DNA of 64,000 nucleotides from Hermatobates lingyangjiaoensis (taxonomy: Eukaryota > Arthropoda > Insecta > Hemiptera > Hermatobatidae): positions 60,001 through 124,000 of the forward strand of contig JAPFBL010000358.1 in the NCBI GenBank assembly GCA_026182355.1. The letters run 5' to 3'. Below are positions 3,963 to 48,165 of the stretch, piece after piece (the stretch's first letter is position 1; each line of letters starts with the position of its first letter). The notes below the pieces were generated by a model that was not told where the DNA came from, ran no database searches, and saw only the letters and a program-made list of their open reading frames with translations. Position numbers and translations under genes: made by a program.

Positions 3963-4005
3963 GACTAAGATCTTTCAACCGTAACAAGCGGTCTTCGTCA
4001 GAGTC
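3963..4005 (-). ncRNA. Hammerhead-ribozyme-like motif, family D
   Basis: Stem I GACU/AGUC flanks the motif. The box CUGACGA is followed by one extra A, then stem II GACCG/CGGUU with a 7-nt loop, then GAAA. Stem III is the palindrome AGAUCU, followed by U as the predicted cleavage-site base. All catalytic-core boxes of a hammerhead are present; the extra A and self-complementary stem III are unusual. Confidence 0.65.
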
Positions 4006-4046
4006 AAAAACCCAACTGAAAACCGTTTTCAACCCAAAAAGGGTTT

Positions 4047-4089
4047 GACTCTGACGAAGACCGCCTGTTACGGTTGAAAGACCTTAGTC
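4047..4089 (+). ncRNA. Hammerhead-ribozyme-like motif, family D (inverted partner)
   Basis: Same boxes as its minus-strand partner: GACU/AGUC stem I, CUGACGA, extra A, stem II and GAAA. The stem III palindrome has decayed to AGACCU, so this arm may not dimerise well. Confidence 0.6.
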
Positions 4090-4164
4090 TTGTTTTCCCA
4101 TTTCATATTGTGGTTTGATCATACATATAATATATATACCTGATTAACAAAAAACGGTCCGGTA

Positions 4165-4320
4165 GGATAGATTACGCTTAAAATAAACTGTGACATATAG
4201 AAAGAAACATAACAAAGACTCACTTTTCAATATTTCGACCGTTATGGCGATTAAAATATTGAAAAGTGAGTCTTTGTTATGTTTCTTTCTATGTGTCGCA
4301 GTTTATTTTAAGTGCAATAT
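4165..4320. repeat. Foldback palindrome cut inside the ribozyme core
   Basis: Inverted arms of about 65 bp meet near 4,238. Each arm begins at GAAAUAUU, the part of the hammerhead-like motif after stem II, so the CUGANGA box and half of stem II are absent. The plus arm runs straight into (TA)n at 4317-4346. Confidence 0.7.
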
Positions 4321-4374
4321 ATATATATATATATATATATATATATACTTCTATATATATTATACTTCTTCCTA

Positions 4375-4475
4375 TTAAAAAGGTTTTAAATAAAAACCGA
4401 AACGTTGGTAATGAGAGTTTAATTTGAACCTGAAGAACTGACCGAGTCCCGATAAACTATAGTTTTGTATATATA
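4375..4475 (+). repeat. Family S unit with degenerate hammerhead-like core
   Basis: Paired arms GGUUUU/AAAACC are followed by GAAA, palindrome ACGU, U and a downstream arm that ends in TA-rich DNA. The CUGANGA box is decayed. A closely similar unit lies at 38,020-38,135. Confidence 0.55.
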
Positions 4476-4479
4476 TAAT

Positions 4480-4600
4480 AAAATAAATTCAAAACGAAGG
4501 AAACACACAGAAAGACACAGACATAACTCACATCGATATTTCGACCATCGTCGTCATCAGGAGGTGTGAAGAGTGAAGAGTCCCGCAGCAAGACAGGGCG
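4480..4600 (-). repeat. Family B unit bearing a hammerhead-like motif
   Basis: Motif at about 4530-4568 (minus): box CUGAUGA, extra C, stem II GAC/GUC with a GAUG loop, GAAA, palindrome AUAU, then C. Upstream CUUCACACCUC can pair partly with downstream GAUGUGAG as stem I. (TA)n lies on both sides. A near-identical unit is at 47,265-47,400. Confidence 0.65.
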
Positions 4601-4601
4601 G

Positions 4602-4830
4602 TATATATATATATATATTGAATTAAAGTATGCAGCAGCTTCTGCATTAACGACCTTTTTGCTGATGGCCTCGATTTTTCTAACTATCTTCCGGTGATGC
4701 AGATTTTTCTAACTATCCTAATGCAGAAGCTGCTGCATACTTTAATTCAATTTGTCTTCAAGAAGATTTGCTGCCCATTTATACTAATATATATATATAT
4801 ATATATATATATATATATATATATATATAG
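4602..4830. pseudogene. Palindromic pair of PLE N-terminal coding fragments
   Basis: Two inverted copies of the same coding piece meet near 4,690. The minus arm reads RKIVRKIEAISKKVVNAE and the plus arm reads the same end and continues to CLQEDLLPIYTNIYIY, where codons for TNIY become (TA)n at 4783-4829. Similar protein ends occur at 19,335-19,553, 20,800-20,970, 12,783-12,960 and 48,018-48,160, so this is the N-terminal region of a Penelope-like retroelement frame. The minus arm stops earlier, at (TA)n near 4,618. Confidence 0.65.
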
Positions 4831-4950
4831 TTAACACATGAAAGAGAAAAAACAAATAAAGATACACACAAAAGACTCACAACGATGATATTTCGACAGT
4901 CGTCGTCATCGGGTAGAAGTAGTCCCTTTGAGTAGCTGAAGCTAACTCAA
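4831..4950 (-). repeat. Family B-related unit with hammerhead-like motif
   Basis: Minus-strand motif near 4886-4919: CCGAUGA (one change from CUGAUGA), extra C, stem II GAC/GUC, GAAA, palindrome AUAU, C. It lies between two (TA)n tracts. Confidence 0.55.
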
Positions 4951-45765: not shown

Positions 45766-45769
45766 TAAG

Positions 45770-46095
45770 TGTTTGTTTAGATGAATAATTCAGGGATGGC
45801 TGCCCATCTTTGCAACAAAAATTTTCTGAAGGACCTAGCTTTAATGATTGATATATTGAATGAAATGTCATTGCACAGTAATGCCCTTCAAGCAAGAGGC
45901 ACAACTTTGTTCAGAGGAGAATACCTCATAAAGAGGCATTTGAATTGCTTAAGGACAATATAGGGACATTTGAAAAAGAAATTGATGAGAGGGTTGCTTT
46001 AGATGTATTCAAAGAGATCCAGTTTACTGAAAACCACAGATTTGTTAGCCTACCTCGTCAAAAAGCTACTGGAAGCAATAATAGAAAATATTAAA
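45770..46095 (+). pseudogene. hAT transposase-like fragment
   Basis: Two overlapping frames: 45,781-45,963 with NFLKDLALMIDILNEMSLHS and ARGTTL, then a +1 shift into FEKEIDERVALDVFKEIQF ending about 46,092. This pattern (aligned helices of the LALLKDILxELSxLSxxLQxR type followed by LIKR) recalls the C-terminal region of DUF4371/KIAA1586-like hAT transposases. The frameshift and missing catalytic parts show a dead remnant. The family call is from memory of the pattern and is moderate. Confidence 0.5.
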
Positions 46096-46205
46096 AAAAG
46101 ACTGATCGCTGGTGATCATGTTAAAGCAACAAGCAATGAGCAGGAAAACTACCTTGAGCTATTTAACTAGCCGAACTCGTAATATTTTAAGCACCTGTTC
46201 GCACG

Positions 46206-46240
46206 AACCGGTTCTTAAAAAATTTGAATCCCACCACTGC
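46206..46240 (-). mobile_element. hAT terminal inverted repeat
   Basis: On the minus strand this reads CAGTGGTGGGATTCAAATTT followed by TTTAAGAACCGGTT, a typical hAT end. It lies 115 bp downstream of the transposase-like fragment, consistent with one element. No left end was found. Confidence 0.6.
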
Positions 46241-46241
46241 T

Positions 46242-47245
46242 ACCCACTATGAGAACTTCAGTCAGAATAACTGTAGGACTCAGGATGTCAAGAAGAATAT
46301 ATATTTAAGATTGGATTTGACCACCCTATCCTAACATTTCTATATTAGGATTGCCATATACCCCAACCGCTTTACTCTAAGCTTTTACTGCAAAATTAAC
46401 AGGCAACTATGTTGAGATACACTATTATGCTAACTTAACATAACAGTATAAGTACTATTTAATTTATTTATCAAATGATCATTACTATTATTAATGACAT
46501 CAATATTGTTGCAATTTGATGTTCTCTCTTAGAACAGTCACTGAAACCTATCCCAACAACGATTTTATATTTATATATTCAATCATCATTAATATTACTT
46601 TATATACTTAAATAACATTATAGCAGAAATAAAAGTGTTTGGAAAATCACAAACTTGAAATTCTATTTATAACGATTGACGTTGGAACAAACATGATCTG
46701 ATAAAATAAATAAAAATATTAAAACCATAAATATACTTTAGCATTTGCTATTAATACAAAAAAAATTAGGAAAAATAATTAAAATTAAAAAATGTATACA
46801 TTAAACAATGCATTAATTATTTAAAACAATATTCCAACTACAAAAAATATGAATAAAATTAAAAATATTTAGATTAAACAGGAAAGTAATTAATCATACT
46901 TCTAATATTTTTTTCGATAATGAAAATATGGTAATATTGAAGTTTCCTGTTCTAAAAAATTTAAATTTCACTTGAAATCATTTATAATATATAGCACACA
47001 TTGATTTACTATTTCATAATATATTATGTTAATTATATTAATTTCTAGTAATATTAATTCTTTTAAAATTTATTCACTACACAGAATTGTTTGTTGCTAA
47101 TATAAATACATTGAATTAACAATCTTTATAAGTTTAACATCATTAATCACCTTAATTATTAATATAGGTTTAGTTTTATTTCCAGTTTATGTAAATATAT
47201 GAAACGAAGAACAGACACCAAAGTGTGAATTAAAGTTAGCAGAAA
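46242..47245. other. AT-rich sequence, nothing recognised
   Basis: Extremely AT-rich with no supported feature. Confidence 0.45.
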
Positions 47246-47264
47246 ATTGATCGTATGTATTTAT

Positions 47265-47430
47265 ATATATATAAAATAAAATAAATTCAAAACGAAGGAA
47301 ACACACAGAAAGACACAGACATAACTCACATCGATATTTCGACCATCGTCGTCATCAGGAGGTGCGAAGAGCGAAGAGTCCCGCAGGAAGACAGGGCGGT
47401 ATTCCCTGCATATACATATATATATATATG
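47265..47430 (-). repeat. Family B unit with hammerhead-like motif, copy 2
   Basis: Minus motif 47,325-47,366 is the same as at 4,530-4,568 (CUGAUGA, extra C, GAC/GUC, GAAA, AUAU, C). Both copies show the same short TA-rich border and the downstream ACACACAGAAAGACACAGAC. The frame is open through the motif (PPDDDDGRNIDVSYVC). Confidence 0.65.
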
Positions 47431-47600
47431 CAGAAAAATCACAATTAAACACGTGAAGCGATCAATGAAGTTTAAACCACAAGGAAAAAGAGAGGTCTCC
47501 TCTCTGATGACAAAAGTGAAAGGCCTCAGAGCATTTATTTATTTTCTTTTTCTTCTTCCTTGCGTTTTAGACTTCATATACACATGTATGATCATACTTA
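47430..47600 (+). repeat. Family P-related unit with hammerhead-like motif
   Basis: Plus motif 47,499-47,532: stem I CUCU/AGAG, CUGAUGA, extra C, minimal stem II, GAAA, palindrome AGGCCU, C. (TA)n lies at 47,407-47,430. Confidence 0.55.
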
Positions 47601-47759
47601 AAAACCATAAATAATCTGGACATAACAAAATGATTTTGATTGACTGCAATTTTCTTTAATGGGCAATATGATATTTTTTTAGCACCTTTTCTATTAATGA
47701 GAATTAATAGAGCAGTGATGCTAAGAGGAACATCTAGGCAGATGAATTTAGGATATTTG

Positions 47760-48165
47760 AAATATATATATATATATATTGCTATTGTTTACATTCATTC
47801 AACTTGCCAGTGAATGATGTTAGTTACTACTTGTCTTTTGTGTATCTTGAAGTTTCATTGTATTTATTCAGTAAGTTTAGTTTAGAAATTTTACATTTTT
47901 TTTTCTCTTGTTTAACTCCGAAGATGGTCTACGATGACTGAAACATTGGTTTGTAATTCTCATAATATATGAATTTTACTAGTAGTTCTTTTGGCAAACT
48001 TATTCATTTGACACCTGATAAATGGAAAAAAGAAATAAGAAAATTGGGAAAGCTGTCCAGGAAATGCACAAGAAAGGAAATAGGTAAGAAATTTAATTGT
48101 GTATGGCTTAATGAAGGTCTGCTCCCTAAATATACAAATATATATATAATAGCAATTACTTAAAA
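47760..48165 (+). pseudogene. PLE N-terminal fragment with family Q motif
   Basis: Motif 47,914-47,956: CCGAAGA (one change), extra U, stem II GGUC/GACU, GAAA, ACAU, U. Downstream, the frame 47,969-48,163 contains LTPDKWKKEIRKLGKLSRKC and KFNCVWLNEGLLPKYTNIY, ending in a short TA repeat. It aligns with the starts of other PLE fragments here. Confidence 0.65.

Follow-up and report, generated by a model that had tools for sequence, protein, structure and literature searches.

Probable minimal type I hammerheads in the pseudo-long terminal repeats of many Penelope-like families in the hemipteran Hermatobates lingyangjiaoensis

A 64,000-nt stretch of the Hermatobates lingyangjiaoensis genome (assembly GCA_026182355.1, contig JAPFBL010000358.1, positions 60,001 to 124,000; here called the window) carries 34 motifs with the layout of a hammerhead ribozyme, distributed over both strands. 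These are very probably minimal type I hammerheads in the pseudo-long terminal repeats (pLTRs) of many families of Penelope-like elements (PLEs), and they seem often to have been left behind as solo copies or head-to-head pairs near TA repeats. They have the hammerhead core, covarying stems and one extra core nucleotide, they are linked to Penelope remnants, and they occur in twin inserts. The hammerhead class itself is already known; this window adds copy number, a long-plus-short rule at such scale, the start point of copies and an AUG within the core.

A first-pass annotation of this DNA had reported about 35 hammerhead-like motifs from at least 12 divergent families, starting at position 3963. 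We searched the window with a strict descriptor consisting of CTGANGA, 0 or 1 nt, a stem II of at least 3 bp, GAA, an A-to-T palindrome, H and a stem I of at least 2 bp. Nine matches were obtained, compared with none in 40 dinucleotide shuffles and none with 149 scrambled cores on the real sequence. At a looser score of 28 or more, the window gave 20 matches (15322+ among them being an artefact) and 20 shuffles gave a mean of 0.2 and a maximum of 1. Shuffled sequences, which the first-pass annotation had itself named as the control to apply, therefore do not reproduce the set. The recurring layout that it described was recovered as well, but it had overlooked a nucleotide between CTGANGA and stem II, which is present in all nine strict matches.

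A covariance model (R1), built from 17 motifs of the window and run with filters off, returned 31 matches in the window at E<=0.012, 17 of which were its own training motifs. Ten of the 12 window copies of families E, F, G and H were recovered at E<=2 by a hold-out model (R3), from whose building set these four families had been left out. Six of them, at E=0.001-0.03, ranked above every doubtful match, and the other four, at E=0.22-0.65, were intermixed with the doubtful matches 11081-, 41404- and 12011+. When run on the window, R3 missed 6076+ and 18429+ (families G and H), and a sequence-only model (R2) recovered its own families only. The total of 34 is made up of the 31 R1 matches, two decayed copies with R3 support (23344+ and 39392-) and 23526-, included by homology; a borderline 35th motif, 10970+, was left open. 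This agrees with the number first estimated, except that matches begin at 2254 already. Grouping by eye and BLAST similarity yielded 11 to 12 families (A, B, D, E, F, G, H, M, N, P and Q/S), among which E, F, G and H look distantly related to each other.

Several candidates were discarded. The 10-bp stem I of 15322+ is the inverted-repeat junction of truncated family A copies. Candidate 11081-, the source of the AGCGCU and GGAC stems listed in the first-pass annotation, sits in a long hairpin, has two core mismatches and was not counted. The fold was weak or missing in 41404-, 12011+, 52084+, 4430+, 38094+, 20644+ and 35196+.

The motifs contain the type I core, CUGANGA and GAAA, with three stems in the right order plus one nucleotide after A9. 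Covariation was measured by pair counts against shuffled and slid alignments. In a MAFFT alignment of the 17 window motifs, which were in part found through their fold, standard pairs occupied 84.7% of pair cells, compared with 61.2% after shuffling and at most 49% after sliding. The covariation score was 0.555 versus 0.201 and was reached by 0 of 500 shuffles; both-sided changes were seen in 10 of 11 pairs, which 14 of 500 shuffles equalled. Outside the window, R1 gave 200 matches in 80 of 98 loci, of which 69 were not family D. After removal of family D matches and duplicates by hand, 53 distinct forms were left, and 51 were used and aligned by sequence. Since they were found by R1, these 51 motifs lean to the model, and many belong to window families. 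Their stem II showed 86.4% standard pairs (68.2% shuffled, at most 57.5% slid) and a covariation score of 0.381 versus 0.182, with neither the score nor the number of paired cells reached in 500 shuffles; double-change pairs (3 of 4) and pair types were no higher in this stem than in shuffles. Stem I was paired in 130 of 172 cells in the outside motifs, compared with a permuted mean of 104 and a maximum of 117. Self-complementary stretches of 4-6 nt directly followed GAA in 43 of 45 outside rows, the other 6 of the 51 having been dropped for want of a GAA-type block; in DNA as AT-rich as this, slid controls also scored high (29-37 of 51 at +1 to +3, and 0-31 at -3 to -1). The covarying stems support a selected RNA structure, as the first-pass annotation had proposed.

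The extra nucleotide is a regular feature of these motifs. With 0-2 spare nucleotides allowed, 22 of 23 window matches scoring at least 26 had exactly one, whereas shuffled matches were spread over 0, 1 and 2 (42, 49 and 33, respectively). Outside the window, non-D matches allowed 0-3 spare nucleotides had one in 38 of 39 cases at a score of at least 28 and in 49 of 53 at a score of at least 26, and family D had one in 120 of 122 matches. The additional letter was C in 24, T in 11 and A in 3 of the outside non-D matches at the higher threshold; in the 31 window matches, T was found 12 times, C 11 times and A 8 times. Whenever it is T, A9-T-G reads as ATG, which is the case in 12 of these 31. 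In families A, B, N, P, Q and S, an AUG thus arises where A9 is followed by the additional U and by the G that opens stem II.

In family B, the ATG of the motif at 12678..12725 (minus strand; R1 E=1.6e-8) is codon 1 of a Penelope-type frame that stays open for at least 50 codons. This frame (12546..12710, minus strand), recognized by translation, begins within the motif; it has an inverted copy at 12761-12958 and relatives by other motifs. Our reading of it as a putative Penelope N-terminus rests on a diverged relative located after the family Q motif, a motif that in turn lies downstream of an endonuclease remnant. At one outside locus (L015), the alignment with a relative of 37% identity starts with residue 1 at the equivalent place within a decayed motif, whose AUG is again codon 1. 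The family N motif at 47909..47954 (plus strand; R1 E=2e-4, outside the R1 training set) is accompanied by an N-terminal remnant at 47987-48139 (35% identity).

Motifs in a pLTR beside a Penelope open reading frame (ORF) were found for families B, P, Q and D. A GIY-YIG endonuclease remnant of the family P element at 26337-26741 (plus strand; PF01541 E=3.4e-5, 24.5 bits versus a cut-off of 22.6) lies about 110 nt upstream of the family P motif 26852+ (26843..26893; R1 E=2e-6), in which C3 is T and A9-U-G opens 22 codons. A second GIY-YIG-type remnant at 19818-20216 (minus strand), identified by motif and homology (translation; tblastn identities of 37-61% at five other loci; Pfam E=0.22, under the cut-off), lies about 155 nt upstream of the family Q motif 19660- (19625..19669; R1 E=2e-6), which occupies the 3' pLTR position. 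Family D pLTRs, too, have an endonuclease remnant akin to the family P one upstream of them, in the same orientation, at four distinct loci (L018, L008/L035, L075 and L013). A short stretch at 25800..26024 (plus strand) is a probable reverse-transcriptase remnant, judged from its translation and from related sequences that tblastn found at four other loci (with L008/L035 taken as one); it has no Pfam match and bears the motif IYRKPTTTD...IH, which we take to be typical of Penelope. No relative of a 75-residue Penelope query was found among viral contigs. TA tracts of at least 7 repeats occur within 300 nt 3' of 20 of the 34 motifs, compared with a random mean of 5.6 and a maximum of 15 in 2000 draws. 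The link to PLEs suggested earlier is thus borne out by the endonuclease remnants before motifs 26852+ and 19660- and by motif 12716-, which overlaps the start of the Penelope-type frame.

Family D was followed through the whole assembly of 909,949,117 bases. Its exact 43-nt hammerhead is present 29,668 times and the same pattern read backwards 0 times; a 34-nt stretch that starts 11 nt past the predicted cut and includes part of a long tail is present 16,809 times. In the window, four of the six divergent same-family pairs belong to family D: 4001/4051 (left arm 3960..4010, minus, R1 E=7e-7; right arm 4042..4092, plus, E=1.3e-4), 22831/22879 (22790..22840, minus, E=8e-6; 22870..22920, plus, E=4e-5), 23232/23353 (23191..23241, minus, E=7e-7; degenerate 23344..23395, plus, R3 E=3e-4 and R1 E=0.09) and 38282/38776 (38241..38291, minus, E=7e-7; 38767..38817, plus, E=0.0024). 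The last pair is contained in a head-to-head inverted repeat at 38234..38824 with arms at 38234-38379 and 38679-38824 (96% identity). The other two pairs are A 31725/31922 and F 14155/14190. Same-family neighbours in other arrangements were seen as well: two convergent cases, both D, and one tandem pair (E 4560/4912). Further family D copies in the window are located at 2254..2304 (plus; R1 E=0.012, R3 E=0.0013) and, in degenerate form and by homology only, at 23494..23543 (minus).

Counted over the loci and the window together, D copies formed 62 head-to-head pairs within 250 nt and 7 convergent neighbours, and another 64 copies stood alone. The single copies had short (35), long (27) or unclassified (2) tails. 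Among the pairs, 53 combined a long and a short arm, 2 were long-long, 1 was short-short and 6 had an unclassified arm. It should be noted that most D loci were picked by the long tail; pairs from core-picked loci or the window were long-short in 15 of 19 cases. When a shared place is scored once for each arm, the two arms of D pairs have derived letters in common 54 times, versus 4.1 expected; a single source RNA, sister RNAs or gene conversion would each fit this. Two initiations would be the simpler reading of these long/short twin inserts, because one folded-back cDNA would be expected to leave two equal ends.

The 5' ends were examined in 70 family D copies picked by their 3' stretch, with presence of the ribozyme not required. 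At least 5 nt before C3 lay 45 of these ends, and 24 of the 70 fell at 15-18 nt before it; 7 were positioned from 3 nt before up to C3, 15 inside the motif and 3 past the cut. Copies starting at the cut site, considered as proof of cleavage in the cell, were not encountered: 0 of 70 family D copies began exactly there, 1 within 2 nt and 3 within 5 nt. As D copies begin upstream of the ribozyme and none exactly at the cut, the usual template appears to be an uncleaved RNA that starts with the whole hammerhead. The peak corresponds to the A of TCAGTT, just outside an outer helix UGGG/CCCA that was joined to stem I in RNA folding. We presume TCAGTT to be initiator-like by comparison with the initiator consensus. 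Where the starts of truncated family A copies could be measured, they fell 9-15 nt beyond the predicted cut; these copies are too few to judge.

The other motifs of the window were placed as follows, with E values from R1 unless stated. Family A is represented at 8132..8180 (plus; 1e-8) and by two divergent motifs at 31686..31734 (minus, left arm; 1e-8) and 31913..31961 (plus, right arm; 1e-8) within a head-to-head inverted repeat at 31590..32057 (arms 31590-31785 and 31862-32057, 98% identity); a decayed relative is found at 39392..39440 (minus; R3 E=0.0045, R1 E=0.13 over part). Family E motifs lie at 4528..4569 (minus; 6e-7), at 4880..4921 (minus; 2e-6), a training-set member with the degenerate core CCGATGA, and at 47326..47367 (minus; 5e-7). 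The family F pair comprises 14121..14164 (minus, left arm; 1.3e-7) and 14181..14224 (plus, right arm; 1.7e-8). Family G occurs at 6076..6116 (plus; 8e-4), 13669..13711 (minus; 2e-7), 16935..16975 (minus; 7e-7, hold-out R3 E=0.0056) and 18239..18279 (minus; 2e-6, hold-out R3 E=0.023), and family H at 12428..12471 (minus; 4e-7, hold-out R3 E=0.011), 15557..15601 (minus; 1e-8, hold-out R3 E=0.0011) and 18429..18473 (plus; 5e-6). A second family N motif at 13163..13209 (minus; 2e-4) was likewise outside the R1 training set. Family S, with G12 changed to A, is located at 21041..21086 (minus; 4e-8), and family M at 36639..36680 (minus; 2e-6), where stem II is very short, and 47495..47534 (plus; 1.5e-5).

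Four family A motifs (8141+, 31922+, 31725- and 39430-) are followed, about 60 nt past the cut site, by an ATG frame MSKYH(T/I)ITDCTT, in which changes between copies are mostly synonymous. Head-to-head truncated family A copies, starting 9-14 nt past the predicted cut, are present at 32868-/32878+ and 34391-/34400+, and the segment 15291-15375 resembles such a junction.

We propose that cleavage occurs in these RNAs, probably as a dimer. Stem III, a palindrome of 4-6 nt, would be too short for self-folding, and an active ribozyme should therefore need two RNA molecules or the help of protein. In RNA cofolding, dimers were favoured by 2.8-7.1 kcal/mol in five families, and the paired-hammerhead form was recognized by eye in family P only. 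The predicted cut, 23-29 nt from the A of the AUG in the six window families that carry it, would remove the cap and the start codon from the message. In family D, cleavage would probably be off during insertion, because the sampled copies point to an uncleaved template; if it happens at all, it may act on mRNA or on read-through transcripts.

A number of observations weigh against this interpretation. Rfam hammerhead models gave no match at E<=10 in the window, nor in 12600-15700 searched alone; perhaps these models presuppose a longer stem III and a core lacking the additional nucleotide. A stem made up of four A-U pairs (ATAT, AATT) would make a weak dimer. TA tracts also lie 5' of the motifs, in 15 of 34 cases. 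Overlap with a start codon is not universal, because the AUG is replaced by ACG in families E and F and by AAG or AAA in family D. At the outside loci L037 and L044, ATG motifs lie 40-43 nt upstream of N-terminal matches in a different frame and are for that reason suggestive at most. Finally, non-consensus letters make up 2.7% of the family D core versus 3.0% elsewhere, in a count that leaves aside copies with more than 7 core mismatches; single D copies are thus not visibly maintained, since core and remainder decay at about the same pace.

This near-equal decay also favours a view in which the motifs are true descendants of Penelope hammerheads whose present copies are decayed and idle, which we consider possible but on the whole doubtful. 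Exact CTGANGA is absent from 17 of the 69 non-D matches, and just two ORFs in the window reach 150 aa, neither of them Penelope by Pfam. However, several copies have all conserved nucleotides and intact stems, and one exact 43-nt version occurs so many thousand times that it must have spread intact.

A different main role for the hammerhead seems improbable to us: its palindromic stem III would pair two sister template RNAs, which would be copied at both nicked DNA strands, one from the long and one from the short initiation site, to yield a head-to-head twin insert. Cleavage would then be secondary, being kept off until later, when it would remove the start codon and silence the message. The 53 long-plus-short pairs among 62, the shared derived letters, the mostly uncleaved templates and the palindromic stem III can be offered for it, but the arms could come from one RNA copied twice, or from gene conversion, and the RNA dimer is only predicted.

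Metazoan retrozymes, in which small elements repeated in tandem give off circular RNAs by means of their hammerheads, are a very unlikely source, even though the units here are short, numerous and each provided with a type I hammerhead. No tandem units bounded by the ribozyme were found: family D is arranged head to head (62 divergent versus 7 convergent neighbours within 250 nt), the window contains six divergent same-family pairs versus one tandem pair (E) and two convergent ones, D pLTRs adjoin endonuclease remnants, and D copies start upstream of the ribozyme and not at the cut site. It is also very unlikely that the motifs are no ribozymes at all but promoters or initiators whose fold is accidental. 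Many D copies do start at the presumed initiator-like TCAGTT just upstream, but the hammerhead core is fixed across families while the stems covary. Chance matches in AT-rich, repeat-laden DNA account for a few weak artefacts such as 11081- and 15322+, but for the set as a whole this origin is excluded by the shuffles, the scrambled cores and the hold-out model.

Minimal type I hammerheads of PLEs were reportedly described by Cervera and De la Pena in 2014 and by Lunse, Weinberg and Breaker in 2017. They have in common with the present motifs the core, a near-absent stem III, a proposed action as dimers, the pLTR position and large numbers; they may differ in the nucleotide added after A9, which nearly all copies here possess. 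A limited literature search, with the 2014 and 2017 papers outside it, turned up no earlier mention of the extra nucleotide or of a general AUG overlap. The plus-strand hammerhead of the viroid CChMVd is said to have one extra core nucleotide as well, reportedly after A9 and an A; here it is mostly C or T, and A in family D.

In one coral, more than 6000 minimal or canonical hammerhead motifs were assigned to 16 families (PMC7229834). The density and variety of the motifs had been called remarkable; the density is indeed high, but minimal PLE hammerheads and many families per genome have been reported before (PMC7229834). Metazoan retrozymes resemble the inserts described here in having a type I hammerhead within short repeated units, but form tandem arrays and circular RNAs and not head-to-head pairs (PMC7229834). 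The Anolis Poseidon element PAc offers a closer parallel: the hammerhead of its template RNA cleaved in the presence of protein, cleavage was not required for insertion in vitro, and two adjacent initiation sites were used (PMC11167929). As we read the printed 361-nt PAc template, it contains CUGAGGA, U, GCC...GGC, GAA, ACGU and C, with the cut 29 nt from the A of the AUG (PMC11167929). It shares with our motifs the AUG formed by core, U and G at the start of stem II and the palindromic stem III, whereas stem and loop sequences differ and some families here have no AUG. Uncleaved D templates agree with insertion independent of cleavage, and long and short D tails fit two adjacent initiation sites (PMC11167929). 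Penelope of Adineta vaga has inverted pLTRs head to head, with an optional 31-bp tail on one of them and an Inr-like motif (PMC3846280). The same three features recur here, but with tens of thousands of D motifs and many pairs without an ORF between them.

Other features of the window were noted as well. A 4.9-copy tandem array at 30274-31050 has a 157-bp unit with a tRNA-like sequence (Rfam tRNA, 29.4 bits) and may be a tRNA-derived SINE turned tandem. A 76-bp satellite of about 34 copies with 98% matches fills 61413-64000 and reaches the window end, and further arrays are present at 40144-40874 (56 bp), 52806-53181 (39 bp) and 54080-54540 (76 bp). Segments 50334-50944 and 52194-52804 form a direct duplication of 611 bp with 97% identity. 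An N-terminal remnant of a Mos1-type mariner transposase (HTH_48, E=3.4e-12) lies at 5164-5580. The reading frame at 43044-43793 encodes an LDL-receptor class A domain and a proline/methionine repeat; one protein search with 43044-43790 gave no relatives at E<=0.001. A possible exon on the minus strand at 55258-55629 contains what may be the end of a homeodomain (VKIWFQNRRYKYKR; Pfam E=0.01, under the cut-off). Weak Rfam microRNA matches at inverted-repeat junctions (22760-22951, 15294-15372 and 36668-36731) look like artefacts of long hairpins.

The in vivo activity and role of Penelope hammerheads have been called a mystery (PMC7761336). With family D copies in tens of thousands beside many other families, this role becomes testable in H. 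lingyangjiaoensis, through copy start points, the template RNA, the relation between core mutations and spread, and the start codon within the ribozyme as a translation switch.

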